Positions 38 through 52,640 of a stretch of DNA of 64,000 nt are shown one piece after another. The DNA is from Tubulanus polymorphus (taxonomy: Eukaryota > Nemertea > Palaeonemertea > Tubulaniformes > Tubulanidae), in assembly GCF_964204645.1 (NCBI RefSeq), contig NC_134026.1, positions 4,340,001 to 4,404,000 on the forward strand. The letters are read 5' to 3'. The stretch's first letter is position 1. Each line of letters starts with the position of its first letter. Under the pieces are notes generated by a model. It made no database searches, had not been told where the DNA came from, and saw nothing but the letters and a program-made list of their open reading frames with translations. Made by a program: the position numbers and the translations under genes.

Positions 38-1522
38 TCAGGATTCTGCGCTGTCAGTGTTGTGCGAAACGACCTTGCTTTGGTAAACGTTATATCGGAA
101 TCCGGCTGGTTTTCGTTGATCATCTTTCTTCCTGTGGCCGCAACGTAGTAATTTCCTGAAAGCGTAGCGAAAGTCCTTCGAGAAAAGGGCATATATAATC
201 GGGTTTAGTAGACTGTTACAGTAGCCCAGCCAGAAAAATATACTGAAAATCACGTAATGCGACAGATTGTAGAATGCGCTTATGAAATAAATGGTGAAAA
301 ATGGCAACCAACAACAAATGAAGCAACCGACTACTATAGCTAAAGTTTTGGCTGCTTTCATGTTACTGTCGTGGTGCCAAGCTTTTTTATATTCACTATT
401 ACTTCGCTTGAAATTGTGACGGTTTTCTTTGACGCCCGCGTTGGGTACAGGTACGCTGAGAGAGGCGTTGCTGCCCTTTTTCTTGACTGTCGCGGGAATT
501 TGAATCAGACATAGCCTATTTTTTCCGTTATTCTCGACGGTAACGTTACTAGCGATGAACGGCTCCCAGTCCGATTTGTCTCGGCTGCTGACAACAGAAC
601 TTCGCGCCGTCGATAATCGGTCTTCGATAAGCAAAGTATCATTGTTTGTCAATTTGTCTGTATTATTTCCTATATTTGTTGCAGCTAATTTGTTTGCCTC
701 GTATTTGCCTGTACGTGCATTGATCGTACTGCCACCCTGGTGAATTCCCATGGCACCGTCGCCCGTCAACAGTTTCCCGCGACCGATCGAGTTGCGAACA
801 CGTTTCGCTATGAAATATATCTTTATATAAAACCCCACCATAACGGCCGTCGGTACGAAAAACGAGCCGATAGCGGAATAAATCACGTAACCCCTGTGGT
901 CGTTCAATTCACAGAAATGTATAGTTTGTATACAATCATCAACCGTTTCGTTAAGGTTCAACGAAAATTGGGCGTTTTCGGTAGTATTTTTCGACGAAGC
1001 ACTTGTACCGGTGCTATCGTCTTCTTGCCACCCGATTAAGGGCGGAAAACTTATCATGAACGAAACGATCCACACGCTGGCGATTAAAATCCATCCTTTT
1101 TTCGCCGTGCTGAAATGCGTCTTGTATTTCATCGGCTGCGAAATGGCCAGGTATCTATCGAAACTGATGGCGCATAAATTCAAAATGGACGACGTACAAA
1201 GCCACACGTCAATAACTAGCCAAATCTCGCACCAGAACGGCTGGAAAACCCAATAACCCATAACTTCATTAGCATTTGAGAACGGTAGCACAAACACACC
1301 CAGGCTAAAGTCCGCGACGCCGAGTGACAAAATTAGATTATTGGTCACAGATCGCGACGTATATCTTTTCATGACAGCTAATATCACTAGCAAGTTCCCG
1401 AACAGTACGGCAACATTTATGAAAGCTAATACAGTCGATATAGACACGATCACTGCGATTTTTCCATCTTCGAAACGTTCATCATATTTCGAGCAATTTT
1501 CATTCACGTCCCGGATCCCCAT
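38..1522 (-). CDS. Aminergic rhodopsin-class GPCR, octopamine/alpha1-adrenergic-like
   Basis: Complete 494-residue seven-helix receptor in one coding exon, predicted to sit in the plasma membrane and signal through G proteins to a biogenic amine. Seen: TM1 with GNLLV (about 42-46), TM2 Asp71 in ADFSLG, Cys98 for the TM3-ECL2 disulfide (partner probably Cys204), the amine-binding Asp105 in IDVWLCTSS, DRY at 122-124, TM4 Trp151, TM5 serines at 216 and 220 (positions 5.42 and 5.46) followed by Pro224, a third intracellular loop of roughly 130 residues, CWLPFF from 404, NPIIY from 440 and an amphipathic helix 8. The TM5 pattern YSAIGSFF and TM4 FPPLIGW most resemble octopamine alpha/alpha1-adrenergic receptors; a dopamine- or 5-HT-like assignment cannot be excluded. 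This ATG is the first in frame and gives a short extracellular N-terminus with an N-C-S sequon at residue 9. No signal peptide, as usual for the family. Confident of an aminergic GPCR, moderate on subtype. Confidence 0.93.
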   Translation of the reverse strand: MGIRDVNENCSKYDERFEDGKIAVIVSISTVLAFINVAVLFGNLLVILAVMKRYTSRSVTNNLILSLGVADFSLGVFVLPFSNANEVMGYWVFQPFWCEIWLVIDVWLCTSSILNLCAISFDRYLAISQPMKYKTHFSTAKKGWILIASVWIVSFMISFPPLIGWQEDDSTGTSASSKNTTENAQFSLNLNETVDDCIQTIHFCELNDHRGYVIYSAIGSFFVPTAVMVGFYIKIYFIAKRVRNSIGRGKLLTGDGAMGIHQGGSTINARTGKYEANKLAATNIGNNTDKLTNNDTLLIEDRLSTARSSVVSSRDKSDWEPFIASNVTVENNGKNRLCLIQIPATVKKKGSNASLSVPVPNAGVKENRHNFKRSNSEYKKAWHHDSNMKAAKTLAIVVGCFICCWLPFFTIYFISAFYNLSHYVIFSIFFWLGYCNSLLNPIIYALFSKDFRYAFRKLLRCGHRKKDDQRKPAGFRYNVYQSKVVSHNTDSAES

Positions 1523-1535
1523 GTTGCGTGTAACT
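1523..1535 (-). promoter_or_regulatory. Probable 5' UTR splice acceptor of the GPCR gene
   Basis: On the minus strand, 11 bases before the start codon lies a pyrimidine-rich stretch ending in TTTCTCTCAG (AG at plus positions 1535-1534). This fits a 3' splice site joining a distal non-coding first exon to the single coding exon, a common arrangement in invertebrate aminergic receptors. The promoter would then lie further right. No donor was identified. Confidence 0.45.
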
Positions 1536-4500
1536 GAGAGAAACTGACATAGTCTAATTGCACGGTGTCCTTCGAAAAAGTGTCAATGACATCATTCACC
1601 GTAGTTGTTTCGGAATATTTTCATCCACCAGTGTGCGCTTTTTTTTCTCGCTAGCGTAGTAAAGCGGTGCCTAAGTGAATCTGAAAATGGGAAAAAAAGT
1701 ACGAATCAATGACGTTGTATTATACAGTGTAACTATGATTGCGGAGCGTGCATAGATGACGGTCGTTGGCCGAAAAAAAACCCAGATGCCAAAATGGTTT
1801 GATGGATGTGGTCATTTTTGTTCAACTCGGATCAATTGCCAGACCCAGAGGCGATTGTAATATTCGGAGAGAAAGCGCGAAATATGAAGGTGCGGTCAAT
1901 AGATGAGATTGTGATAATAAGCGTTGGGCCAAACTGCGACGGTTGCCGGAATAATTTTGTTTGATTCGCTCTCGATATCGCTGTTATAGTGCGCTCGTTA
2001 GCCATATCGATTCACAAACCCAAAATGCTGGATGAGATCGCAGATATTCGCATTGAGGCAGTTTTAAAAATTTCGTCCATTCACAGAAATGCGTCCAGTG
2101 ACCATTTCTTACGTTCAGAACGCGTATACTTTCATCGTACCAATTGTATTTTGTTTGTTCCTAATTTATGATCATTTATCTCTGACTAAAGAGGATAATT
2201 GGGAATTAACGAATTTGCTTAATTCCACATGACAATGGCCAAAATATTGCGGCTGTTCAATCGATAAAAGATTATGTAAGTATCCAATACGGGGTGGCTC
2301 TAATGGGTATATTTCTGGGGGTCTAGATCCCTGCCTTCCATTTTGCCCATTAGATACCAAGACAGATCGTTAAAATCTGCAAATTTGACACTCTCTCGAA
2401 AATTGCATTGCTTCGGATATATTCCTTCATAATATCTCTAACACCTAGAATAGGACTCTGCTTGGACTACAGGGTAGCTGCTTTATCCAAAGAATGCCAA
2501 TTTTCCTAGATCCGCCCCCGCGAAACATTTTTTGACAGTCGTTTTTTGTCATGTCGTTCGTTACTGCGACAAAATAAATCCGATGTACCGGTAAATCTAA
2601 CATGCGTGTTGTATACCAGAAATATTTAGTAGAACATATCAGTGCGGGTTAGCTAGAAACTGACCGCGAGCGCATTGCACGACGTCCTGCTCGATTCTTT
2701 AAAGAAGGTTTCGCGTGGTACGAAATAAGACTGGACTCTCAGGCAGTTGAATAATATCAATTCTTAAGAAGTCGTGTCGAGATATTTTTTTAGAATAAAT
2801 ATTTATTCGTCTTACGAATAATTTAGTGCTTTCAAAGGTGCAGATGCCTTCAGGTGTAAATATGGCAATCACGTGGAATTTATGTACATATTATAAGGAC
2901 GATTCCCGCATTAAAGCGTGAATGTATTTGCATTTAATTTTCTATAGCCAATCCCCTGTGTCGCCATTGTTGCTATTTCGCTGAGCCATCCATCCTCTGC
3001 GTGACGGGTATGACATCAGACACGACACGAACCGAGAGAAACAACCGAACGATTATTAACTTGCGCGATAGGTCGACGTGTGACGAAAAGACACTGGCGC
3101 GAATTCCGCTTTCGGCGAATCGAGGGTGACATGAATGCCTAAATAAGATATGACCGAGTTATACTGAAAGATGATGCTAAGCTTTCCGGGTTCGACTAGC
3201 ATTATCTAAACAGCTTTTATGTACATTTGATTTGTATTCAATTATGTGCTTCTCGCGTGGAAGGCCTTTTAGTTAATTGACGTCGTAATTTTACTCTGTT
3301 ATGCATATAATTAGCGAGATTAAACTGTACATTGACAGGGCACTTTGTCATCTGATGACATTGGGGACCGAAATGTTATTTTTTAGATATTTTTGAAATT
3401 CAGTATTTTCATGTCTGTAGCGGTCATCGTCATACGGGTCAGGGTCAACTAAGCATCAAATAAGCGCCCGCGATGCTGTAGTGAATGTATACCAGTTTCT
3501 TGTTAAAAACATATTGACGAATGGCCGGTAAACTAATTTCGAAACGAATATTCCGATGATAGGAAGCGATAATCAAATCGCCAGATAACACGTTTAAGCG
3601 TCGTGTTACGAATATATACAGTTATGGAAAGTATTGACAAAATGATAACTTTCATAGACTGATACACGCGTGGGTTGTTATATAATATATATTCGTCGAT
3701 GTACAATTTACCGACGTGAACGGTAACATCATTTTCCCGATCCTAAGACGCTTCCATGTGAATGTTTTTCTTTAAAAAATCGATGAAAAAGTTTGCCGCT
3801 AACGTAAGCGCCGGGAAGTGTAGGCAGATATGGTCTAAAGGATTGCGTAGATTTCAGCTTTTGAATATGTATGATTTCTACGAAGCTTTCAAAAGCAGGA
3901 ATGCAGGGGCTAATAGCATCTCCCCGACAGCCGGCGAAACTCGGTTTCGTTGTTCGGCGTCGAAGAAACGCGCTGCGGATCGTTTACCCGCGGCCAAAAA
4001 CAAATTAAGATTTTACCTCGACTCCGTCATCATTTAATAGAGTATTTCATCGTAAACAAATTCAGCTCGCAACGACAGTGATTAGTTAAACCGCGTCGAA
4101 ACACACTCAACCACGATGAAAAGCTGCGCAAAATTGAGATTTCCACGCTGTCCTCCTCTGATCTCGCGGCGCTTGCAAATTTATTCAGCTCCCAGGTAAA
4201 ATAGGCAACTAATTTCTCCTCAATTCAAGCGCGATTCCAATTTCTCATCACTCTTCTTAACCGCGTATACCGCGCGGCATCGTGGCTTTTTATCACTTCG
4301 TACAAATTTAATGATTAGTTATACCTGTGGATCTAAAAGCGCGGTTTGAATTGATGTGACTGACGAGCGCTTGGGAATTTGTGCCGGGCCACAATCTTAA
4401 CTGAAAATGCAAACAGTCGATTAACCATATGGCGTATACGCTCGCTGAGATCGCTGACTAGACCTAGCTTGAAATAGAACCGCGTAAAACGTGTTAAACC

Positions 4501-19900: not shown

Positions 19901-22190
19901 ATAGATCCACGATGGATTTCTGCAACCCAACAACGTTTGGTTCTGTCGAGTCTGTATCACATTTTTCTTTCGTTTAACCAGATTGTCTTTCAAAACGTAT
20001 TTCTACGCGTATTAGAGACTTATGTATTTGAAGATGCTTCGATGATTCGTGCGCGATGCATTATCAGGAATTTGTACTACGGCATTTCCAGGAGAAAATC
20101 ACTGTGAGATTTGTTTTTTGTTTATAGTTGGTCGAATATAGATTTATTTTTAAAAAATGATTTTGATATTCTATAATTGTCTAACAATTTAAAACTTAGA
20201 AGACTCTTGTCAAATTGCGGACTGGTTTGCTGGTCGATCGCCTGAACAAATATAACCTTTGATGGCTAATACATTTATCAACTTCGGGATTAGCCTCTAT
20301 CAAGGTAGTTCCCAAAGAACGGAAATTACTGTAATTTTTCATGGGGTACTTTATCTCAAATGAAATATTCAGTCTCCAGAATAATGACTGATGTATTAAT
20401 ATCTTCGTATACCAACGTGTCTCACCATCTTAGTATCTGTTATTCGGAGAGTAATAACGATTTATTTGGTCTCAATCCGCATATCTCAGGTTGATTTAAG
20501 TAAGTTCCGTTGCTTCTGACGGGAATAAAAAAAGATCAACGAATCTACAAAAAAGCTCCTTATCCTCAAACTATATTCCGTCGTATGTAAAATCGTTCAG
20601 TCGAATTTGTTACCCTTTTGGGCAGTGTTGAATGCGATGGTGCTGCGCGATCGTTGGAACTGATCGGGTCATATTTTTCACTTTATAGTCATTCGACTAA
20701 ATGATATCGTGAAGGATATCGGGATTTAGCCTTGAATACATTTCGGATGTAGGGAAAACCTATTAGAACCAAATTGGGCAATTGATATTCTTACCAATCC
20801 GCTTACTTTATTGCTGGCATGAATCTTTCGGTCGCATTGGAAATACCTACGTATAAGTTTGCCGTGTACTCGGATGAGTCGGACTAGTGGCTGTACTTAA
20901 TTATTTAGGATCTGCCGCAGATATCGGAAAGACTTCAAATATAAGACGAATGCTTTATTGTAGACACGCCATAGCGGTCTGATACTGTCAGCCGCGTTCA
21001 AGTTTTAAATCGGATGTAATACGAATTATCTGTAATTCAGATTATTATCTGTAATTTTCTAATGTAATTTAATTCGTAAATAAAGAATAATAATGATAAT
21101 GATAATAATGAAAAATCATAATGTATCAATGGGTTCAAAACCATGAACTGAAAGATTTTTACCATTCAGAAAAAAAGACAATTTTCGACAAGATAACGAT
21201 GGTCTTAAGCTCGTAAACATCGACTACGATTTCTCCGAAGGATATTCGGACGCGGCAATATGTATAATATTGGCATAACCGGGTAAGGAAAACAGCGGGT
21301 ATGTGTTGGTCCTGCGGGCAAATGTTGGCTAATTAAGTTCCAGATAGAATCGTCAAACGCCGCAGATCAAGGTTAATGGACACGACGAAGAGGACACGAT
21401 CAGACAATGTTTCTTGACGTACGTCAGCGAATCACGAGACAACTTGGTAGTTTTTCGGTGGATAGGTAATTGCCTCATCTGCTGCAAAATACGGCTTTCA
21501 GCTTGTCAAGTCGAATGAAGAAGCTAATCCTTTACGGATTAATTAGTTTGCAGTTCGGTTTAGATATTGCAGCGACCACGTTCGTCAAATACTTTCAGTA
21601 AATTCGTATAGATGGCGACTTGGTAGTGCGCTGTCGAGATTTGCCGAATGTAGCTCACAGAAAACATATCAACCATTCACGAGACACATAAAACGAGAAA
21701 AGCTCATAAATTCGATTTTAGATACAACGAACTGTCGTAACGAACCACCAGTCTCCTGAAGTTCGTTTTGTACTAAAACATACCTGTTTCGCTATTTGCT
21801 TTCAAAGCAGTCGAGAAATGTTATGAACGCGAAGTGAATTTTATTGCGAACCTCTCACCGCGGAAAAATTAAAGTAGCTCTTAAAGTGTCAAAACTTACC
21901 TCGAAGGCTATAAATTCATACATACAATGAATCGAAGTCGAGCTATAAATTACTAAATAATTGTAACACAGTTGTAATAAATGCCATTTACTTGATGAGT
22001 TATAGAAGGTAATAATAACCGTTCGTTACATTTCCCGAACTCAGTAAATTATTTAGTTTTTCGTAAAGATTCGGGGATAATATCTATTTCCCATAGACTA
22101 TGACTAAGATTTGATTTGAGGATCTTATTAGTCAAGCAAAAACGTGAAAAACTATAGTGAATATTTTGATTCCGACAGTTCGTAGCTTAC
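13927..22190. other. Non-coding interval, possibly containing later kringle-gene introns/exons
   Basis: No exon was recognised with confidence. The interval lies downstream of the two kringle exons on their strand, so missing exons of that gene may be in it. A serine-rich minus-strand frame at 14572-14907 starts near an acceptor-like site and is a weak candidate. A run of about 14 cytosines occurs near 15758-15771, a short (TA)n near 16437-16451, and an (ATA/ATG)-rich tail at about 21080-21115. Confidence 0.4.
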
Positions 22191-23397
22191 CACAAAATGG
22201 TATGTCGCAGAGTTCGTATCGAACGTTGGGATCTTTCGTGTAACACCAAGGACCTGTACTGTCGTCTAAATTTCTACAGAAGTTTTTTGCATCTGCGACT
22301 GTTTCGTCTGGGAATATATTTGGCTCGTTACTGTACATGTGACCATGAGGGCTCTGAGATGTCCATGTTTGACACGGGTAGCCACTCTTAGTTACTGCGA
22401 CTGTTCCGCGGTATTCGAACCCTTTCACGGTTACCTTGCATTCTCTAAACGGCACTGCAGTAGAAACAAAACAATACTAGATGAAGCAAGGAATAACCCG
22501 ATTCGGACTTATACGTAAATCTTAAATATACTTAGATATCAACATGATATATAGACATCACTACAGCATGTACTGTGCCTTGTAGGGTGATGAATGGGGT
22601 ATGAATGTGCGGGCGACTGGGCCTTTCAGGTAATATGTTTTCTTCTTAACTTCACCAGTTGTCAAGCGCCTTTTTCCCAATATTTTGTATTTCCCTATTT
22701 TCTTTCGTATATGAAAGACTATTATTGCTTTATTCATGATGTGGCATACCAATCGTTCTCGTGCTTGCCCTCCCCACCCGGTGCAACGTAAATTCAAAAT
22801 ATCTGAGTTTTATAACCATACATTACCCGGGCATCTTACAACGGTGCAAATTTCTGTTACGACGTTTCCCATTGTGTAGCACCAGGGATGATCAGCCCGA
22901 GCGTTGGCGGGATTCCTACAGAAGTTAGAAGCCTTCGCTACAGTCGTATCTACAAACTCAGAAGCGGTCGTGTATTTCGAGTGAGCGTGAGGGGTCTGAG
23001 AACTCCACGACTGACACGCTAGGCCACTCCTTGTGACATTCAGATATCCGGCGTAATCTCTTCCTTGAGGTGTTTGCCTGCATTCAAGTGGGGCTGGAAT
23101 TAACGAAAGGACTTGATAATCCAAAATACTATTAGCATATTAGCATAGTCCAAATTGGAGATGTTTAATTCACTGTCACTGCGTATGCGATCGCTTGTTC
23201 GGCATTCCACAAGAATTGACAAAAAGTATTGAAATAAATCAGTTGCGGGCAAACACCTCGAAAAAAGCATCGTTAATTGATATTGTTATATTTTGCGAAT
23301 AATGATAATTCATAATTTGAAATTGTTTACAATTCATCGTATACTTACCACTCAATCCACGATGAATCATGAACAGAATCTGAAACACAAGAGCCAT
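22191..23397 (-). CDS. Kringle-domain secreted/receptor protein, 5' part (signal peptide plus two kringles)
   Basis: Three exons chain in phase 1 on the minus strand. Exon 1 (23349-23397) encodes MALVFQILFMIHRGLSG, a plausible signal peptide start, and ends at a GTAAGT donor. Exon 2 (22827-23093, 267 bp) follows a TTCCAG acceptor and encodes kringle 1, ending at a GTAATG donor. Exon 3 (22191-22454, 264 bp) follows a CTGCAG acceptor and encodes kringle 2, ending at a GTAAGC donor. Each kringle has all six cysteines in the expected spacing, including the NFCRN and PWCYT motifs. Symmetric 1-1 modules are typical of extracellular shuffled domains. Kringles usually bind protein ligands, as in plasminogen-type proteases, ROR kinases and Kremen. 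No stop or further domain was found before 22191, so the product's C-terminal half is unknown and the call stays at kringle protein. Confidence 0.88.
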
Positions 23398-27222: not shown

Positions 27223-27418
<196 letters not shown>

Positions 27419-27496
27419 CGCATCTGCGCATTGGCGCATTGTAGCTGTTTAGACGCTGAACTGGTGGGACACGAACTGGGTGCGTCCGATAACAGA

Positions 27497-30400
27497 ATGA
27501 AGTCTAGTTCGTTAGGATTTCTGATTTTTTTGACATTCGCCGTTCGAACCACTGTAACAAGTAAGCTATGCCAGACCAATATGGAAAGCCAGAAAAAGCA
27601 TTGAAATAATATTTCGCACTAAGATGATATTGAAGCAAAATTTCAATGCCTTATAAGAATATTTCTTCGTGCCCACGAGCTATGTTTACAATATTACAAT
27701 AGGCATTATGGGCTTTCGAAGATTAGTGCATATCTATGAATTGGGATAATACTTCAACATATTTCTAAACATGTAATTGGAAAGTTTTATTTGCTAATTC
27801 TAAGTATAAATAGATAATCAATACGTTAGTATTTTGTTAACTGACTATTTTGCTAGATGTTTGCGAAGACAATGCGTTCGGTCCAAACTGTCAAACAGAA
27901 TGTCACTGCAAAAATGCCTCTAAGTGCGGAGAAAATCTGGCATGCGTATGCAAAGACAAATGGAGTGGACCGAGATGTCAAATCAGTAAGAGTAACCTTC
28001 TAGAAAAAATCATTAACACGCGACAAGTTTTTACCGAGCTTTAAATTGGCATTTTCTTATGAAACGTTATCGAATTCTGACATTCGTATCGTTGAATTTT
28101 GCAGAGAATGTAGCATTTAAAAAAGAGGTGAATTCATCTCCGATGTATTCAGTGTACACGCGAGGAATGTTAGTCGATGGAAAAGTCAATGAAAAACATA
28201 ATATTTTTCACACAATAGACGTCCTCAAAGCTTGGGCTGTAATTGATCTACTAGAACCACACGTCGTTTCTAGAGTCATTGTTCATGACAGACCTGATGC
28301 TCATTTTACCGATGAGAATGCACCATCACCAGAAGGAGATGAATGGAGTATGTTTGAAAATATCTGGATTCTTAAACAAAGCGTTTACTTCAATAATAAT
28401 TCTGATATTATGTGTTTGCTTTATTTATCAGAAAATAGGTCTCGTGAATTAGATATACGAGTTGGTAATACTAGCGCTATCTCTGCGAGCAGTTCACGAT
28501 GTTTCTACATCAAAGAACCGTTATTTGGAAAATCCACAAATAACGGGACCTGTATGAATGGTCCGATTGTAGGGAGATACGTGAGTGTGCAACACAATCT
28601 CGAACAACCAGAATACATGAATTTGGCAGAAGTTGAAGTTTTTGGCTATCCATTCACTCGTATGTATAATTTTGCTTCACGTTTATCGTGGCATTCCTTG
28701 ATTATAATATTAAAAGTAGTCGTGAAAATCATACTTTTTAATTCATCTTTGACTAGCAAATTGTTCTGTAAAGAACACTTACGGCTGCTTAGCGAAATGT
28801 AACTGTTTGGGGAATTCTACATGTGATTATTTGACTGGCAGTTGCCAAAAAGGTTGTGCAAACAGCCACATCGGAAAGAATTGCTTTTCAGGTATGTTAT
28901 ATTTAGAAGTACTCACTGGATAGTTTCATTATCTTTCAATCAATTAACCAAGATTTGTCAAACAGATTTCAGAGTACCTGGGCTCCCACGTTTGGTGAAT
29001 AAAACGGAGACCTCGTTGAGCATCGAATGGAATAATTACAACGGACCTAGAGACGACTCCGGCCGCGGTGAAATAAGAAATCTGAAATATAGAGTGAAAA
29101 TAAGATCATCTGACGGAATGAAGCCATCAGTCGAACTGAACGCGATAGGCTACACATTTAAAGGGCTGAATCATTCGACAAAATATAACATTTCAATGTC
29201 GATTGTGGCAGATATAGGTGATAGTACCAAAGAAGGGCCAGACGGACCGGAAGTACCTTTCGTGACAGTCTGCCAACGAAAGTGTGAGTGAAGTAAATGC
29301 TAACATTTGAACGAAATAATCTATAATATGCTATTATTTCTGATTATTTCCATCCAAAGCGGTGCCTTTTCAGCCAAAGGTGAAGGAAAAAAATGCATCG
29401 ACAATCCTATTGGAATGGAAGGTACATCTATAGATTTCGATTTTTTTTTATTTGGAGACATAAACTGTATTGTATTTTATTCCATTGTTTAGGTGGTTAG
29501 TTGTTCAATTCTGACTCATCAATTCCAATCTGTTTATAGGACAACGGTTGCCAATATGAATATCTAGTCAGCTACCGAAAAGAATCCGAAAACACTTGGA
29601 CAAATGTCTCGATTTCCCACAACGATTCCAAGATGATCTTACCGAAACCAGTCCCTTATACTTACTACACAATAAAGGTGATAGGAATATTGAATTACAA
29701 TGATGTATGAAAAATTCAATTAACTTGCCTTGTTTCTGACGTTTTAATACAAAATGAAGGCCGATAATTAGAAAATTTCCAATTAAGTACTTCGATTAAG
29801 ATTTAAAAAAATTCTTTTAATACGATACAAATCATCCAACTCAACTGTACGTCGACATCCTTCGACTTCAAAATAATCGGGTTTGTAAGGGACACCAAAT
29901 CAAATCTTTCAATCAAATACGCAAATAAGAGAAAATAGGCTTAATAGTAATACACGAATGGCTGTATATAGTAGTCTAAGTAATTTACCGTTTTGCAGGT
30001 GACGTCTGTAGGAAAGAAAGGTCGAGGTCGACCGAGCAATAAAGCTGTTTTCACCACTGAAGTCGGATGTAGGCATCAAATATCGTCTAACGAAATATCT
30101 GTATAGGCCGTCTTCTCTAATTTCTACAGCCATCATTCTATTTATATACGTATCATTTCAGTTCCCAGTGAGGTGGTCAATTTCACAAAAAGCGTCGATT
30201 CAAACCATCCCATCCGGCTTGAGTGGTCACCGCCAACGCGGCCGAATGGAAGGATAGAGGGTTACCACGTGAGATGATGAATTCTGAATGATCCGTATAC
30301 TTGAATCCGGCTATATCAATTTATAAACGTTAATTCATTAACAAATTCAGCTGACGTGCACATGGTTGAAAACACTATTTTCCGATAGTTCAAACAAAAA

Positions 30401-31592
30401 GCACCAAAAAGTGACTAAGTCTACGTTGGAAAGGAAGATGATTTTACCAGAGCTCGAGCCATCTACATGTTATGAGTGTACAATCAAAGCTAATACTAGC
30501 GTTGGTTACGGGCAAGAAATCACTCGACGATTTTGGACGTACCCGCATAGTGAGTGTCATTAACTTGAGTATAGATGATAATTCTGTTCATCCTATTAAT
30601 GCAATATCTCAGGTAACGAACATCATTCTTATCATTACCCTTGCAGAACCACAACTATTTGGCAAACCTAAAATCCGCTCGGAAGATACAAGTGACATCA
30701 GTGTAACGCTAAGTTTGCAAGAAATCGAAATCAGGGCTGGAAACATAAGGTAAGTAATCCATTGTCGATTCAGACTACTTTTCTGAAAGCCTTATTTCAA
30801 TATCAGAAATGATTTGTATTTTGTAATTCTATACATGCAGTGAATACCAGATCGTAGTGCAGCATGTACAAGGTGGCCAGACTGGCATCAATGCGAGTGT
30901 CAACAGGAAGGACGTGAAATGTGCCCGCGAAAGTCCCCATTTCTATTTGGCTGCAAGTTTCATCAATAAGTTACCGGAAACATTCACAGTCGGAGATGGA
31001 AGCGAACATGGACCATGTCCCAATAGACAGCTCAAAAAGGGCGAGACCTATGTTATTTGTATCCGGGCAATCAACGAGATCGATAGGGTATGGATTTGAA
31101 ACATACTGATAACTTGCAAAAATGCTAGAATAATTTCCGACATTTCTAGCCCTATCCAACATGAATTCACCATGAGATTGCACTATTTCAATCTTAAAAT
31201 ATTGTGAAATATTTTTCGTTTAGAACAAAGAAATCAATGCGATCTGTACAGATAAAGTTACCGGTAAGCCGAGATCAATTCAGGGAAATAAATGACTTAT
31301 AATCTGAAGGGTCATGGTAAAAAAAATCAAGATTGTCAAAAATTAAAAGAGACATTCCAATACATTTCATATTTCGTTCATCATTTCGTGTTTACAAAAC
31401 TCAAAAAGATTTTCGAGTCTTGTAACCAAAGAAGCCACGCTTATTATTTCGTAAACGAGTCGATAGCGCGTGTTGGATAACATTTTACATTTCTAGTGAA
31501 GAAACATGAATCGTATCTTCTGGTTATCATTGTTGCACTTGGATTTACTTTGATCATACTTGTTATCATCATCGTTGGCGTTTACAGGTATA

Positions 31593-31627
<35 letters not shown>

Positions 31628-32623
31628 ATATATATATATATAATATCGTAATACGATTCGATAAAAACTAGTTCGATATTCATCGATGATTTCTTTGAAT
31701 TCAGGTACATTAAACGTCGTTCCCAGCAAGAAGGTTCGGGTTCTCATGCAGGTACAATCTTTCTTTATTTGTCACGGTTCTTTTATACGGTACATCATTG
31801 TAATAATTTGGCACTTAATGATATTCTCGATATATTATTGATTTTTCAACAAATAGAATATATTCCAGAGAGTATCTAAGAAGTGGAGACGATCGGGATT
31901 ATTTCAGGATCAGAGAGCTCTTTTAGTATAAATCCACGTAATATTCTTATATCGAGTGTATTTTTTGATTGTTTAGCTAACAGCACGGCCCATCCCGGGG
32001 AAATTTACCTTCAGGTTTGTAAATATAAATACATCTTATTTTTTTGAATATTTAGATTTGTGAATCTTAACTACCTGTAGTTTTTTAATTATCTATAGCC
32101 TACACCTGCTGATCATGGTGACAGAATCTATTCTACGCAAGAGGATGTATACGAAGACATAGATGACCACGATGACGTAGATATCGTAGATGTCGTCGAT
32201 GTGGCAGATGTCACGAACGCTACAGTCCCAGAGGAAGACGTTGATATCAGGAACCCCACAGAAGATGACTACGTTAATACAAATATCAGAAAAGCTACCG
32301 AAGATACCTACGTAGTAGCAGATGTCATGAACCCCACGGAAGATGACTACGTTAATACAAATATCAGAAAAGCTACCGAAGATACCTACATAGTAGCAGA
32401 TGTCATGAACCCCACAGAAGATGACTACGTTAATACAAATATCAGAAAAGCTACCGAAGATACCTACGTAGTAGCAGATGTCATGAACCCCACAGAAGAT
32501 GACTACGTTAATACAAATATCAGAAAAGCTACCGAAGATACCTACGTAGTAGCAGATGTCATGAACCCCACAGAAGATGACTACGTTAATATAAATATCA
32601 CAAAAGCTAACTATAAAAGATAA
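27497..32623 (+). CDS. Receptor copy 1: EGF / F-type lectin / EGF / 4xFN3 / TM / tyrosine-repeat tail
   Basis: Seventeen exons join into 943 codons plus stop: 27497-27560, 27857-27985, 28105-28659, 28793-28891, 28966-29283, 29360-29421, 29540-29677, 29999-30068, 30162-30268, 30351-30549, 30647-30749, 30841-31087, 31224-31263, 31497-31587, 31705-31751, 31977-32014, 32099-32623. All have GT-AG borders and compatible phases. Domains: signal peptide 1-21; EGF-like 22-64; F-type lectin 65-249; EGF-like 250-282; FN3-type 283-388, 389-478, 479-580 and a membrane-proximal one about 581-697 with FTVGDG; one TM helix about 713-740; cytoplasmic tail to 943 with 26-residue repeats from 821. No kinase or phosphatase domain. 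Predicted type I surface receptor that binds a glycan or protein and recruits SH2 adaptors once its tail is phosphorylated; that role is inferred. FN3 domain 2 is a chimera relative to copy 3. Confidence 0.9.
28116..28235 (+). other. Hypervariable start of the lectin domain, copy 1
   Basis: 120 bases (40 codons) at the N-terminal side of the F-type lectin exon that differ strongly from the equivalent segments of copies 2 and 3, while the preceding intron and following exon sequence are nearly identical. It includes the FHT histidine that sits 27 residues before the Arg of RPD. Confidence 0.85.
31588..31642. repeat. (TATC)n/(TA)n microsatellite at the TM-exon donor, copy 1
   Basis: Tetranucleotide repeats begin about five bases inside the intron that follows the transmembrane exon (donor GT at 31588) and grade into (TA)n. 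Short here, very long in copy 2, replaced largely by (TA)n in copy 3. Confidence 0.93.
32252..32623 (+). repeat. Coding 78-bp repeats of the cytoplasmic tail, copy 1
   Basis: Four full 78-bp (26-residue) repeats start at 32252, 32330, 32408 and 32486, with a partial fifth from 32564. Each contains [11 protein letters not shown], a Tyr-x-Asn site, and a second tyrosine in DTYVVAD or DTYIVAD. The order of V/I variants is V, I, V, V. Upstream in the same exon is VYEDI, and the previous exon ends EIYLQ, making YLQP across the junction. Confidence 0.95.
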
Positions 32624-36712: not shown

Positions 36713-41964
<5,252 letters not shown>

Positions 41965-46062: not shown

Positions 46063-49000
46063 ATGAAGTCTAGTTCGTTAGGATTTCTGATCTTTTTGAC
46101 ATTTGCCGTTCGAACCACTGTAACAAGTAAGCTATGCCAGACCAATATGGAAAGCCAGAAAAAGCATTGAAATAATATTTCGCACTAAGATGATATTGAA
46201 GCAAAATTTCAATGCCTTTTAAGAATATTTCCTCGTGCCCACGAGCTATGTTTACAATATTACAATAGGCATTATGGGCTTTCGAAGATTAGTGCATTTT
46301 TGTAAATTGGGATAATACTTTAACATATTTCTAAACATGTAATTGGAAAGTTTTATTTGCTAATTCTAAGAATAAATAGATAATCAATACGTTAGTATTT
46401 TGTTAACTGACTATTTTGCTAGGTGTTTGCGATGACAATGCGTTCGGTCCAAACTGTCGAACAGAATGTCACTGCAAAAATGCCTCTAAGTGCGGAGAAA
46501 ATCTGGCATGCGTATGCAAAGACAAATGGAGTGGACCGAGATGTCAAATCAGTAAGAGTAACCTTCTAGAAAAAATCATTAACACGCGACAAGTTTTTAC
46601 CAAGCTTTAAATTGGCATTTTCTTATGAAACGTTATCGAATTCTGACATTCGTATCGTTGAATTTTGCAGAGAATGTAGCATTACATAGGACGGTACATA
46701 CAAGTAAAATCTGGAGCACAATGACGGGAGAAAAGTTGGTAGATGGAGTCAAGAATAATTATTTTAACACGGACAAAGTCCCTAATGCTTCGGCTGTAAT
46801 TGATCTACAAAAACCATACGTCGTTTCTAGAGTCATTGTTCATGACAGACCTGATGCTCGTGTTACCGATGAGAATGCACCATTGCCAGAAGGAGCTAAA
46901 TGGAGTATGTTTGAAAATATCCGGATTCTTAAAAAAAGCGTTTACTTCAATAATAATTCTGATATTATGTGTTTGCTTTATTTATCAGAAAATAGGTCTC
47001 GTGAATTAGATATACGAGTTGGTAATACTAGCGCTATCCCTGGGAGCAGTTCACGATGTTTCTACATCAAAAAACCGTTATTTGGAAAATCCACAAACGG
47101 GACCTGTATGAATGGTCCGATTATAGGGAGATACGTGAGTGTGCAACACAATCTCAAACAACCCGAATACATGAATTTGGCAGAAGTTGAAGTTTTTGGC
47201 TATCCATTCACTCGTATGTATAATTTTGCTTCACGTTTATCGTGGCATTCCTTGATTATAATATTAAAAGTAGTCGTGAAAATCATACTTTTTAATTCAT
47301 CTTTGACTAGGAAATTGTTCTGTAAAGAACACTTACGGCTGCTTAGCGAAATGTAACTGTTTGAGGAATTCTACATGTGATTATTTGACTGGCAGTTGTC
47401 AAAAAGGTTGTGCAAACAGCCACATCGGAAAGAATTGCTTTTCAGGTATGTTATATTTATAAGTACTCACTGGATAGTTTCATTATCTTTTAATCAATTA
47501 ACCAAGATTTGTCGAACAGATTTCAGAGTACCTGGGCTCCCACGCTTGGTGAATAAAACGGAGACCTCGTTGAGCATTGAATGGAATAATTACAACGGAC
47601 CTAGAGACGACTCCGGCCGCGGTGAAATAAGAAATCTGAAATATAGAGTGAAAATAAGATCATCTGACGGAATGAAGCCATCAGTCGAACTGAACGCGAT
47701 TAAAGGGCTGAAACATTCGACAAAATATAACATTTCAATGTCGATTGTGGCAGATATAGGTGATAGTACCAAAGAAGGGCCATACGGACCGGAAGTATCT
47801 TTCGTGACGGTCTGCCAACGTAAGTGTGAATGAAGTAAATGCTAACATTTGAACGAAAATATCTATAATGCTATTATTTCTGATTATTTCCATCCAAAGC
47901 GGTGCCTGTTCAGCCAAATGTGAAGGAAGACAATGCAACGACAATCCTATTGGCATGGAAGGTATCATATAGATTTTATATTCCTGACAATTGTGCTTAT
48001 TTGAAATCTTTTTCTTGTAAACATAAACACGTTTGTATTTTATTCCATATATTAAGGCGATTAGTTTTCTTGATGAAGCTGCTGTGCATTTTCGGGTTCA
48101 TTGTTGTCATTAAGTAATTATGTCTTTACTCGTCAATCTCAATCTGCTTATAGGACAACGGTTGTCAATATGAATACCTAGTCCGCTATCGAAGAAAATC
48201 CGAAAACCCTTGGAGAAATATCTCAACTCGCGCTTCGGAGGTGATTTTACAAAATCTAGTCCCTTATACTGACTACATGATAAAGGTATTGACATGGAAT
48301 GGGTCAGAATGGGCACTCATGGATAAAGAATTAGAATATAGAACCGCTGAAGGAGGTAATAACCATTCAACCACTTATATAGCGGGCAGTAGCTCACGGC
48401 TCAAAAAAAAAGTTAAACCCCACATCACTTCGTCTTTTTCCAATCTGATTTTATGATACACATCCGTTTCAGTTCCGGCGAAGGTTCAAAATCTTACAGT
48501 TACGTTTTCAAACGCAACCTCTTTGGAACTTTCATGGAAACCGCCAACTACCGCGAATGGGATACTATCAGGATACATTATTTCGAAGAAATTGATACGT
48601 TATCAGGCATGTTCTGGGAATAGTGCCGAAAATAGTACGACTTCTCATTTGAATAGAACAAACAGTAGACTAGGTAACTTGCAGCCGTTTGCTGAATACA
48701 ATATCACGGTACAAGCAAAAACTAAAGTTGGACCGGGCGAAAACGTGCATCTTAGCCACTCAACAAATGAAACAAGTTAGTACAAATAAACCGAAACTCG
48801 GCTACGGGATAAACACTATAAAGGTGAATTAAAATGATGACCAATAACATTCTTGAATTTTCATATATTTTCAGCGCCACACCCGACAACACGCCCGCCT
48901 GTGGTAAATATTAACGCCGGGGAAATGGTGTTCAGCAACATAAGTTGTAAAAAGATGAATGGACATTGGGAAAACTTCGTACTCAAATATAAGAATCTTT

Positions 49001-51605
49001 GGAACAACACCGAAATTGGGCCTATACCAATGAATCGGTCAAGATACGCAATCTCGATGCTTGGTTTGGAACCTAACATGCTCTATGAGATACGGTATGC
49101 GTGGAAAAACGGTTTTGGTAGCAGTGAATTTTCGGATCCTTTGATCTATCTAACAGAAGAAACGGGTAATCACGTTTGTAATTTTTTCCAGTCGTAAATA
49201 TCATTGAGTGAAAACCCTGAAATAATTCAAACAACTGCTATTGTTTGTTTCCTTACGTTTCGGGTGGAAGCATCGTCAGAGTTTATTTGAAAATGAACAT
49301 TTTCCGGGTATTTACTCTCAAGGGTAATCACATTTCTATTTCATTTTCGTATCAATCTATTTAATTAATTTACAATCTGATGGTTGTACGTTATTTCGTG
49401 GCTATCAACCTACTAAGATAGCTACACAAGTATTAATGTCGTCTTCTTCCTCGTGATTTAAGGACTAATTAAGCATTTAACTCAATTTAAAGCACCCTAT
49501 CTTGTTTTTTTTCCTTCCAAATCTCAGTTCCAGATGCGCCTATCTTATCCAGCGAGACGTCCGTAGACTCGTCGTCGATAAAAGTCAACTGGACACAACC
49601 AGTGCCGCCACGCGGAAACGTCACCGCTTACACAATCAGTTGTACAGCAACCGATGTAAAAGAAACTATAGAGACTTTGAATGTCAGCTCCCTGGAATTT
49701 ACTCCGGCAAAAAAGCCCGGCGGCAAATGGTTCAAATATCGAATGCGAAATCTTACTTCACATGTCAACTACACTTGCCAAGTATGCATTTGAGGAATTA
49801 ATGGAGATAAAGAACCCTACGTTTTTTCCCGGTTATTTACAAATCAAATGCAATATTCGATTAACCGTATTCGAAATTGTTTGTGACGTTTTAATAGAGG
49901 ATGAGCTCTGCAGCGATAATCTGAGTTTATGTGAGAAACGGAACCGAAATTTCCAATAATGTACTTCGATTTAGATAAAGTAGAAATAATACGAGAGAAA
50001 AATAGGCTGATGTCGAAGAATTTATATATGATGAATGGCTATATATGGTTTAAAAACAAGTTACCGTTTTGCAGGTGATTGCTAAAGGAAAGAAAGGACA
50101 AAGTCGACCGAGCAATACAGCTGTTTTTATCACTAAAGTCGGATGTAGGCATCAAATATCGTCTAACGGAATATCTGTATAGGCCGTCGTGTCTAATATC
50201 TACAGCCATCATTCTATTTATATACGTATCATTTCAGTTCCCAGTGAGGTGGTCAATTTCACAAAAAGCGTCGATTCAAACCATCCCATCCAGCTTCAGT
50301 GGTCACCGCCAACGCGGCCGAATGGAAAGATAGAGGGTTACCACGTGAGATGATGAATTCTGAATGATCCGTATACTTGAATCCGGCTATATCAATTTAT
50401 AAACGTTAATTCATTAACAAATTCAGCTGACGTGCACATGGAAGGAAACATTTTCCGATAGTTCAAACAAAAAGCTTCAAAAAGTGACTAAGTCTACGTT
50501 GGAAAGGAAGATGATTTTACCAGAGCTCGAGCCATCTACATGTTATGAGTGTACAATCAAAGCTAATACTAGCATTGGTTACGGGCAAGAAATCACTCGG
50601 CGATTTTGGACGTACCCGCATAGTGAGTGTCATTTACTTGAGTATAGATGATAATTCTGTTCATCCTATTAATACAATATCTCAGGTAACGAATTTCATT
50701 CTTATCATTACCCTTGCAGAACCACAACTATTTGGCAAACCTAAAATCCGCTCGGAAGATACAAGTGACATCAGTGTAACGCTAAGTTTGCAAGAAATCG
50801 AAATCAGGGTTGGAAACATAAGGTAAGTAATCCATTGTTGATTCAGACTACTTTTCTGAAAGTCTTATTTCAATATCATAAATGATTTGTATTTTGTAAT
50901 TCTATACATGCAGTGAATACCAGATCGTAGTGCAGCATGTACAAGGTGGCCAGACTGGCATCAATGCGAGTGTCAACAGGAAGGACGTGAAATGTGCCCG
51001 CGAAAGTCCCCATTTCTATTTGGCTGCAAGTTTCATCAATAAGTTACCGGAAACATTCACAGTCGGAGATGGAAGCGAACATGGACCATGTCACAATAGA
51101 CAGCTCAAAAAGGACGAGACCTATGTTATTTGTATCCGGGCAATCAACGAGATCGATAGGGTATGGATTTGAAACATACTGATAACTTGCAAAAATGCTA
51201 GAATAATTTCCGATATTTCTAGCCCTATCCAACATGAATTCACCATGAGATTGCACTATTTCAATCTTAAAATATTGTGAAATATTTTTCGTTTAGAACA
51301 AAGAAATCAATGCGATCTGTACAGATAAAGTTACCGGTAAGCCGAGTTCAATTCAGGGAAATAAATGACTTATAATCTGAAGGGTCATGGTAAAAAAAAT
51401 CAAGATTGTCAAAAATTAAAAGAGACATTCCAATACATTTCATATTTCGTTCATCATTTCGTGTTTACATCATTTCGTGTTGGATAACATTTTACATTTC
51501 TAGTGAAGAAACATGAATCGTATCTTCTGGTTATCATTGTTGCACTTGGATTTACTTTGATCATACTTGTTATCATCATCGTTGGCGTTTACAGGTATAT
51601 ATCTA

Positions 51606-51691
<86 letters not shown>

Positions 51692-52640
51692 TCGATATTC
51701 ATCGATGATTTCTTTGAATTCAGGTACATTAAACGTCGTTCCCAGCAAGAAGGTTCAGGTTCTGATGCAGGTACAATCTTTCTTTATTTGTCACGGTTCT
51801 TTTATACGGTACATCATTGTAATAATTTGGCACTTAATAATATTCTCGATATATTATTGATTTTTCAACAAATAGAATATATTCCAGAGAGTATCTAAGA
51901 AGTGGAGACGATCGGGATTATTTCAGGATCAGAGAGCTCTTTTAGTATAAATCCATGGATTATTCTTATATCGAGTGTATTTTATGATTTTAGCTAACAG
52001 CACGGCCCGTCCCGGGGAAATTTACCTTCAGGTTTGTAAATATAAATACATCTTATTTTTTTCAATATTTAGATTTGTGAATCTTTACTACGTGTAGTTT
52101 TTTAATTATCTATAGCCTATACCTGCTGTTCATGGTGACAGAATCTGTTCTACGCAAGAGGATGTATACGAAGACATAGATGACCACGATGACGTAGATA
52201 TCGTAGATGTCGTCCATGTGGCAGATGTCACGAACGCTACAGTCCCAGAGGAAGACGTAGATATCAGGAACCCCACAGAAGATGACTACGTTAATACAAA
52301 TATCAGAAAAGCTACCGAAGATACCTACGTAGTAGCAGATGTCATGAACCCCACAGAAGATGACTACGTTAATACAAATATCAGAAAAGCTACCGAAGAT
52401 ACCTACGTAGTAGCAGATGTCATGAACCCCACAGAAGATGACTACGTTAATACAAATATCAGAAAAGCTACCGAAGATACCTACATAGTAGCAGATGTCA
52501 TGAACCCCACAGAAGATGACTACGTTAATACAAATATCAGAAAAGCTACCGAAGATACCTACATAGTAGCAGATGTCATGAACCCCACAGAAGATGACTA
52601 CGTTAATATAAATATCACAAAAGCTAACTATAAAAGATAA
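46063..52640 (+). CDS. Receptor copy 3 (long form): EGF / F-type lectin / EGF / 7xFN3 / TM / tyrosine-repeat tail
   Basis: Twenty exons join into 1236 codons plus stop: 46063-46126, 46423-46551, 46671-47213, 47347-47445, 47520-47819, 47900-47961, 48154-48355, 48473-48775, 48875-49165, 49528-49781, 50075-50144, 50238-50344, 50427-50622, 50720-50822, 50914-51160, 51297-51336, 51504-51594, 51724-51770, 51994-52031, 52116-52640. Domains: signal peptide 1-21, EGF 22-64, F-type lectin 65-245, EGF 246-278, FN3-type 279-378, 379-466, 467-567, 568-664, 665-772, 773-873 and membrane-proximal about 874-990, TM about 1006-1033, tail repeats to 1236. FN3 domains 3, 4 and most of 5 have no counterpart in copies 1 and 2. 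The donor after exon 8 is GTTAGT, weaker than the rest. FN3 domain 1 lacks 4 residues relative to the others. This copy probably shows the ancestral architecture. Confidence 0.88.
46682..46792 (+). other. Hypervariable start of the lectin domain, copy 3
   Basis: 111 bases (37 codons), the most divergent of the three segments. The histidine of FHT is Asn here (FNT). Confidence 0.85.
48290..50074 (+). other. FN3 block present only in copy 3
   Basis: The 3' part of exon 7, exons 8 to 10 and their introns. In copies 1 and 2 the sequence passes from the IK codons of exon 7 straight into an intron like the one after exon 10, and then into the exon 11 equivalent. Confidence 0.8.
51595..51688. repeat. 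(TA)n microsatellite at the TM-exon donor, copy 3
   Basis: Two or three TATC units directly after the donor, then about 75 bp of (TA)n; part of the intron after the tract present in copies 1 and 2 is missing. Confidence 0.93.
52269..52640 (+). repeat. Coding 78-bp repeats of the cytoplasmic tail, copy 3
   Basis: Four full 26-residue repeats and a partial fifth. Variant order V, V, I, I differs from copies 1 and 2, showing exchange or drift within the array without loss of any tyrosine. Confidence 0.95.

Follow-up and report, generated by a model that had tools for sequence, protein, structure and literature searches.

A hypervariable loop segment bounded by near-identical sequence in putative F-type lectin receptor genes of the ribbon worm Tubulanus polymorphus

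We identified three tandem genes of the palaeonemertean ribbon worm Tubulanus polymorphus in which a sharply bounded block of some 120 bases at the start of a lectin exon differs strongly between copies, within surroundings that are nearly the same in all of them. We consider it probable that gene conversion homogenises these genes while selection maintains diversity in the loop segment, with short exchanges reshuffling the loops of a surface receptor. The genes lie in the window, by which we mean the whole 64,000-nucleotide stretch analysed here (C2:4340001-4404000 of the 268-Mb genome), and occupy 27.5-32.6 kb (gene A), 36.7-42.0 kb (gene B) and 46.1-52.6 kb (gene C). All of the evidence comes from one individual's assembly.

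Results

Splice sites and RefSeq models gave genes A, B and C a common plan, consisting of a signal-peptide-like start, an EGF domain, an F-type lectin domain in two exons, another EGF domain, fibronectin III domains, a transmembrane-like stretch (recognized by eye) and a cytoplasmic tail. On the forward strand of gene A these are exon 1 (27497..27560; signal-peptide-like by eye, from the splice model and translation, with the start as in RefSeq P0003), the EGF-like exon 2 (27857..27985), which differs little in an alignment with B, C and a fourth copy, D, lectin exon 1 (28105..28347; alignment and RefSeq models), lectin exon 2 (28432..28659; conserved in the alignment of A-D) and, from the exon model, the second EGF and fibronectin III exons (28757..31087) and the transmembrane-like exon (31497..31587; by eye). 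Gene B (36713..41964, forward strand) is RefSeq P0001, isoform X3 of LOC141898814, and the C-terminal part of gene C (46063..52640, forward strand) is present in RefSeq P0002. The lectin copy of gene D lies on the reverse strand at C2:4157508-4158044, about 210 kb from A-C and in reverse orientation. RefSeq protein models exist for B, for D (P0003) and for a B/C hybrid (P0002), and none was seen for A alone.

The two lectin exons are divided by an 84-nt intron (28348..28431, forward strand, in A; further copies at 37561-37644 and 46905-46988) of equal position and length in A-D, which RefSeq skips in its models for both B and D. As this intron is in frame and stop-free in all four copies, its retention would add 28 residues to the lectin. 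Further downstream, the fibronectin stretch (29300-30100 in A, 47900-50075 in C) exists in one version in A and B and in a second version in C and D, the latter exceeding the former by about 1.5 kb and including extra fibronectin exons (48286..50074 in C, forward strand, common to D; 321 bases in A). C is strongly unlike A and B there, so that the description of these units in the first-pass annotation as nearly identical even in introns holds for the introns near the variable segment and fails for C at about 29300-30100.

Several side observations concern the gene models and their surroundings. In RefSeq P0002, exon 6 of B (38570-38631) is spliced to exon 7 of C (48154-48285), which gives a protein with its N-terminal half from B and its C-terminal half from C; this hybrid reflects either read mis-mapping or genuine splicing across units, and the latter would add combinations. 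In B exon 1 (36713-36776), an A in place of T in the word CTAGTACGTTAG creates a GTACGT donor, which P0001 seems to use, hence its lack of a signal peptide. A long TA microsatellite stands directly upstream of each gene start (27223-27415 for A, likewise for B and C). Elsewhere the window holds a rhodopsin-type GPCR open frame (41-1582, reverse strand; PF00001, E 1.9e-63) and a kringle domain (22135-22476, reverse strand; PF00051, E 3.4e-22), and Rfam at gathering scores gave no match in the window.

According to sliding counts of differences along the alignment of A-D, the copies are nearly identical through the first three codons of the lectin exon and then diverge abruptly over a well-defined block, beyond which near-identity resumes. 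This segment lies at 28116..28235 in A, 37332..37448 in B and 46682..46792 in C (all on the forward strand) and is flanked by AGAATGTAGCA and GCTGTAATTGATCT, in agreement with the first-pass annotation as to coordinates, lengths (120, 117 and 111 bases) and boundary words. The lengths differ by whole codons in A-C, as had also been claimed, and the reading frame is intact in the segment of all four copies. The annotation had placed the segment at the start of the lectin domain, and it does comprise ~40 codons at the start of the lectin exon, but the domain consists of two exons split by the 84-nt intron. With that intron spliced out, as RefSeq models B and D, the segment makes up the first half of an exon of its own.

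The high divergence claimed for the segment among the window genes was borne out, with A-B, A-C and B-C differing at 29-46% of positions there versus 1.5-2.6% in the introns, for which parts of five introns near the segment were compared. The counts were 34/118 in the segment versus 9/609 in the introns for A-B (Fisher p 2.9e-21), 51/112 versus 13/609 for A-C (p 1.6e-34) and 48/112 versus 16/609 for B-C (p 5.1e-30), a 16-21-fold excess of divergence among these three genes. The segment of D is close to that of A, and A-D was the weakest pair (11/121 versus 21/607, p 0.0097); B-D gave 36/118 versus 26/607 and C-D 50/112 versus 25/607. Loops that merely tolerate change, whether constraint is relaxed or the site is a local hotspot of mutation, would fit the loop dN/dS values reported below, which lie near the neutral value of 1. 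However, the frame is kept in every copy, and because the nearby introns of A, B and C are so much less diverged, neutrality would need a hotspot confined between the exon start and the far edge of the loop block, and we regard this explanation as very unlikely. Assembly is difficult where tandem units are near-identical and TA runs occur, so that haplotypes or chimeric joins could mislead, and the first-pass annotation had itself raised an assembly artefact; but A-C lie in one 31.9-Mb contig, their introns differ, RefSeq protein models cover B, the B/C hybrid and D, and a like pattern recurs in 27 exons on other contigs, so that an artefact is barely credible.

The identity of the domain as an F-type lectin, also part of the first-pass annotation, was confirmed by Pfam F5_F8_type_C_2 in the protein of B and by a lectin profile, built from nine sequences of which one was a first exon only, that matched FBP32 (3cqo, E 3.8e-27) and the eel lectin AAA (1k12, E 1.8e-10). 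All six PDB sequences matched by this profile at E <= 0.01, AAA and FBP32 included, align over the F-type domain. PF22633 scored above its cut-off in P0001, P0008 and P0013, and D (P0003) reached 24.0 bits, under the cut-off of 27.8. The annotation had read the segment as loops around the ligand site, and the profile alignment agrees, mapping it on CDR1 and CDR2 of AAA together with the fucose-contact histidine. In gene A (forward strand), loop 1 (28140..28169) corresponds to Glu26-His27 of AAA (CDR1), loop 2 (28182..28205) to Phe45-Tyr46 (CDR2) and loop 3 (28293..28343), which is alike in A-C and replaced in D (DAVLPVADW), to the Arg79-Arg86 loop (CDR4). The loop names are those of PMC5712786, which places Arg79 and Asp81 of AAA in CDR4.

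At the spacing found in AAA, His-52 of the fucose motif was present in 29 of 31 lectins, Asp-81 in 29/31 and Arg-79 in 31/31, the Arg being the anchor of the count. His-52 is replaced by Asn in C and by Leu in L059, one of the related loci. None of the 31 lectins has a basic residue at the motif spacing of Arg-86; in the profile alignment, this position of AAA is matched by an Arg that directly follows the longer loop 3, and the exon 2 match begins with Arg in all 25 of the C12-type loci described below (27 in total) for which exon 2 was found. The motif His-52/Arg-79/Asp-81 is kept, and on this sequence evidence fucose binding is putative. Structure prediction for P0001 with 14 relatives gave a mean pLDDT of 43.7, too poor for use.

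Informative sites grouped the four copies differently along the gene. All 10 in the segment supported AD|BC and all 31 in the FN3-2 exons supported AB|CD; a wider count at 29301-30100 gave 172 AB|CD sites but includes intron bases of A that do not properly align to C and D, and the exon count is preferred. Elsewhere we counted 3 AB|CD, 2 AC|BD and 1 AD|BC at 27441-27860; 2 AD|BC and 1 AB|CD in the remainder of lectin exon 1; 1 AC|BD and 1 AD|BC in lectin exon 2; 5 AB|CD in FN3-1; and 2 AD|BC, 1 AB|CD and 1 AC|BD in FN3-3. Gene D, being A-like in the loop segment and C-like in the FN3-2 exons, is therefore a recombinant. When the 61 differences between A and B outside the segment were placed at random 20,000 times, in a test that assumes evenly spread mutations, no placement produced an identical run as long as the 884 bp that these two genes share.

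Genome searches with the segment of B matched only B itself, A and D, and those with the segment of C matched C alone, giving no donor for either; because very common words are skipped in this DNA search, a missing donor is not proof of absence. The visible sequence sources are other full genes of the family. These search results, and the old look of C at synonymous sites, are what a donor pool beyond this assembly would leave, whether it consisted of diverse alleles in other individuals or of unassembled silent cassettes. We nevertheless think such a pool unlikely, as near-identical loops of the C12 group occur in other full exons, which makes separate cassettes unnecessary there.

Segment dN/dS by the Nei-Gojobori method was 1.46 for A-B, 0.91 for A-C, 0.93 for A-D, 1.05 for B-C, 1.42 for B-D and 0.88 for C-D, with dS of 0.10-0.78 over the six pairs. 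Because multiply changed codons can inflate the counted synonymous steps, we used a conservative test that considers only codons with unchanged amino acid and compares the segment with the rest of the lectin, the 84-nt intron excluded. Changed same-residue codons were in excess in the segment of C relative to A (7/14 versus 1/96, p 8e-7), B (3/12 versus 2/102, p 8e-3) and D (6/13 versus 2/91, p 3e-5), and the test was not significant for A-B (2/18 versus 2/98, p 0.11), A-D (1/30 versus 2/92) and B-D (2/15 versus 3/92). By this synonymous excess, the segment of C, at least, either predates its flanks by far or derives from a diverged source, and its genealogy is older or separate.

The segment of C is not explained by a simple acceleration of substitution; for A versus B, strong amino-acid selection alone is possible. 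With dN/dS of only 0.88-1.46 and strongly raised synonymous sites in C, recent point mutation plus selection does not suffice. Positive selection on new point mutations only, by which recent duplicates would have changed fast in their loops and exchanged no blocks, does draw support from loops full of nonsynonymous changes and from the three non-significant pairs. Against it stand the same-residue changes of C relative to each other copy, the switch of D from A-like to C-like and the raised loop pS of the C12-type group (below), and we judge it improbable. The first-pass annotation had proposed diversifying selection or donor-cassette conversion, and had named dN/dS near or below 1, coupled with equal divergence at synonymous and intronic sites, as adverse to this. 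Conversion-like mosaics are indeed present, but the assembly yielded no donor for B or C, and the ratios lie near that adverse value; synonymous divergence, however, is not equal, being far higher in the segment when C is compared.

A like pattern was seen in related lectin exons elsewhere in the genome. A search with the lectin of A gave 52 exon-level matches at E <= 1, of which 34 were on contig C12, and with a C12-type first exon as query 50 matches were obtained at E <= 0.1, of which 27 were close full exons (25 on C12, 1 on C9 and 1 on C10). Each of the 27 can be read as the framework NVARGKTVTMSS, with minor variation, followed by loop 1 (6-13 residues), KCTDGQ, loop 2 (5-14), CHT..DQNAWIRIDLGTQYVVHEVTLWDR, loop 3 (9-13) and W, that is, as three hypervariable loops on a conserved framework. 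In 23 of the 27 (four near-duplicates dropped), pN/pS was 0.59 for the framework and 1.19, 1.21 and 1.40 for loops 1-3, the loop values being rough because loop alignments are heavily gapped, and pS was 0.12 for the framework versus 0.43, 0.35 and 0.21 for the loops, or 1.7-3.5 times as high. Exon 2 had a pN/pS of 0.60 (21 loci).

In a pairwise loop table covering 10 of the 27 loci, picked for similar upstream introns, L052 and L055 were identical in loop 3 (0/27) and in the framework between loops (0/18) and differed in loop 1 (10/18) and loop 2 (13/27), and L038 and L040 had loop 1 in common (1/27) and not loop 2 (12/24). The upstream intron of L041 differs at 5/239 positions from that of L064 and at 33/239 from that of L040, yet its loops are near those of L040 (3/27, 2/24 and 1/27). 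Among 21 loci, 18 of 22 near-identical loop pairs (<=12% different) had another loop that was >=30% different (2/3, 6/8 and 10/11), L040/L041, which share all three loops, being counted three times among the 22. Since loop 3 has few types, part of its identity may be shared ancestry. Mantel tests on 21 of the 27 loci (four near-duplicates and two without a found exon 2 dropped) showed no significant loop-to-loop correlation (r 0.06, 0.00 and 0.09) and a weak correlation of loop 1 with the upstream intron (r 0.20, p 0.043), the downstream intron (0.27, p 0.010) and exon 2 (0.28, p 0.015); the test is low in power, as framework pieces barely correlate with anything.

One C12 gene, assembled from open frames and tblastn pieces and represented by RefSeq P0008, resembles D in its lectin, EGF and fibronectin matches and in both phosphatase parts. 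RefSeq names in this group are mostly 'RPTP T-like' or 'kappa-like', and because some models (P0004-P0006) contain two lectins with exons ~3-4 kb apart, there are fewer genes than exons. Lectin-exon peptides are identical within L038/L039 and within L061-L063 (C12 1.37-1.46 Mb), in copies 3-90 kb apart, which represent either very recent duplication or assembly duplicates. Remoter F-type-lectin-like exon matches, some of them arrayed, were seen on C12 (8.28, 9.21 and 10.65 Mb), C4 (27.37 Mb), C6 (3.8 and 9.45-9.57 Mb), C55 and C57. Word-based protein searches, which remote relatives could escape, found none outside Tubulanus at E <= 1e-3 (3, 12 and 3 matches, all Tubulanus).

The ectodomain occurs with different cytoplasmic parts. 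P0003 joins the D ectodomain to two phosphatase domains (PF00102, two stretches), P0008 likewise has PF00102 in two stretches, and both contain the loop SAGAGRTG (HCSAGxGRTG criterion). A Pfam scan found no PF00102 in P0001 (gene B). When searched against the window, the cytoplasmic part of D matched nothing at E <= 10 and that of P0008 gave only four matches, at E 2.7 or worse. The tails of A-C (32099-32623, 41440-41964 and 52116-52640, forward strand in A) instead consist of tyrosine repeats of 26 residues (78 nt), near-identical between units and, in A, carrying YVNT and TYVVA tyrosines; this tail was matched once each in A, B and C and was not found in 30 kb around D (best E 0.79). One ectodomain is thus joined to two tail types, and YVNT fits the pYxN docking motif of Grb2. 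P0013 (the lectin of L056, C12 0.318 Mb) has a short tyrosine tail without phosphatase, but because P0013 is an isoform X2, this tail may be a splice form and not a separate gene type. The membrane-proximal fibronectin III domain of B resembles that of RPTP-U (PF23144) below threshold (21.8 versus 24.7 bits), and a PTPRU-like membrane-proximal domain exceeded the Pfam cut-off in P0008 and P0013 among the four proteins scanned.

Discussion

According to the model that we prefer, the segment would encode the loops that face the ligand in a surface receptor, comprising CDR1, CDR2 and part of the pocket. Gene conversion among paralogs would keep introns and framework uniform, diversifying or balancing selection would preserve old loop differences, and short exchanges would carry loop blocks between genes, with the outcome that each gene would present a different recognition surface on a common scaffold. 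More speculatively, the receptors may bind glycans or glycoproteins and take part in self/non-self or microbe recognition, and the phosphatase and tyrosine-tail forms might act as opposing partners. Uniform receptors with variable loops are the pattern expected if they evolved to distinguish many targets or individuals. The family would also be a clean case of conversion and selection jointly holding diversity in ~120 bases.

Several known systems share part of this pattern. Like the receptor phosphatases PTPRK/T/U, the Tubulanus proteins have a fibronectin III ectodomain and, in P0003 and P0008, tandem cytoplasmic phosphatase domains; unlike them, they carry an N-terminal F-type lectin with hypervariable loops, and A-C and P0013 are without phosphatase. 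MHC class I and II genes combine a diverse ligand-contact exon with a uniform background, and paired activating and inhibitory receptors combine one ectodomain with varied tails, but the Tubulanus genes have no homology to either, and it is paralogs of one genome that are compared here. Clustered variable receptors are known from Hydractinia alr and also from Botryllus fuhc. According to a review of the latter (PMC12065747), Botryllus FcoR proteins have tyrosine motifs, CD45-like receptor phosphatases are among the expressed signalling parts, and fuhc genes are described as having no hypervariable regions found. Unlike both allorecognition loci, the Tubulanus family has other domains, and its variation is confined to loops and known from sequence alone. 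A vent snail shows a fucolectin expansion, and PTPRK is spelled out in the legend for its expanded families, the two not being joined in the excerpt of that report (PMC7895826). We found no title or abstract start naming hypervariable lectin-phosphatase receptors, in a search whose coverage mostly excluded subscription literature.

In the nemertean Lineus, grafts are reportedly rejected with specificity and memory (PMC2248247), and this might be a phenotype that such a family serves. No molecular candidate for nemertean graft rejection was found by title or abstract start, although one may exist. As clustered surface receptors with two tail forms on one ectodomain and diverse loops on a homogenised background, the Tubulanus genes are testable candidates. 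A bolder scheme, which we advance tentatively and think rather unlikely to hold in full, is a nemertean system of combinatorial recognition in which a standing set of lectin-phosphatase receptors with matching tyrosine-tail partners, highly polymorphic among individuals and with three binding loops independently shuffled by germ-line conversion, would underlie the specific graft rejection with memory of Lineus.

The nearest precedent is oyster bindin, an acrosomal protein of Crassostrea gigas with F-type lectin repeats, in which selection acts at the fucose face and recombination occurs in an intron (PMC5712786). The two share the F-type lectin, selection at the face of the fucose pocket, recombination yielding new lectins and an intron in mid-domain. 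Bindin is encoded by few single-copy genes and is diverse between individuals, whereas in Tubulanus the lectin belongs to numerous paralogous receptors of transmembrane type, their tails being phosphatase or tyrosine tails, and loops are exchanged within one exon; the transmembrane-like segment and long tail of the gene model speak against a tail-less sperm acrosomal protein of the bindin type.
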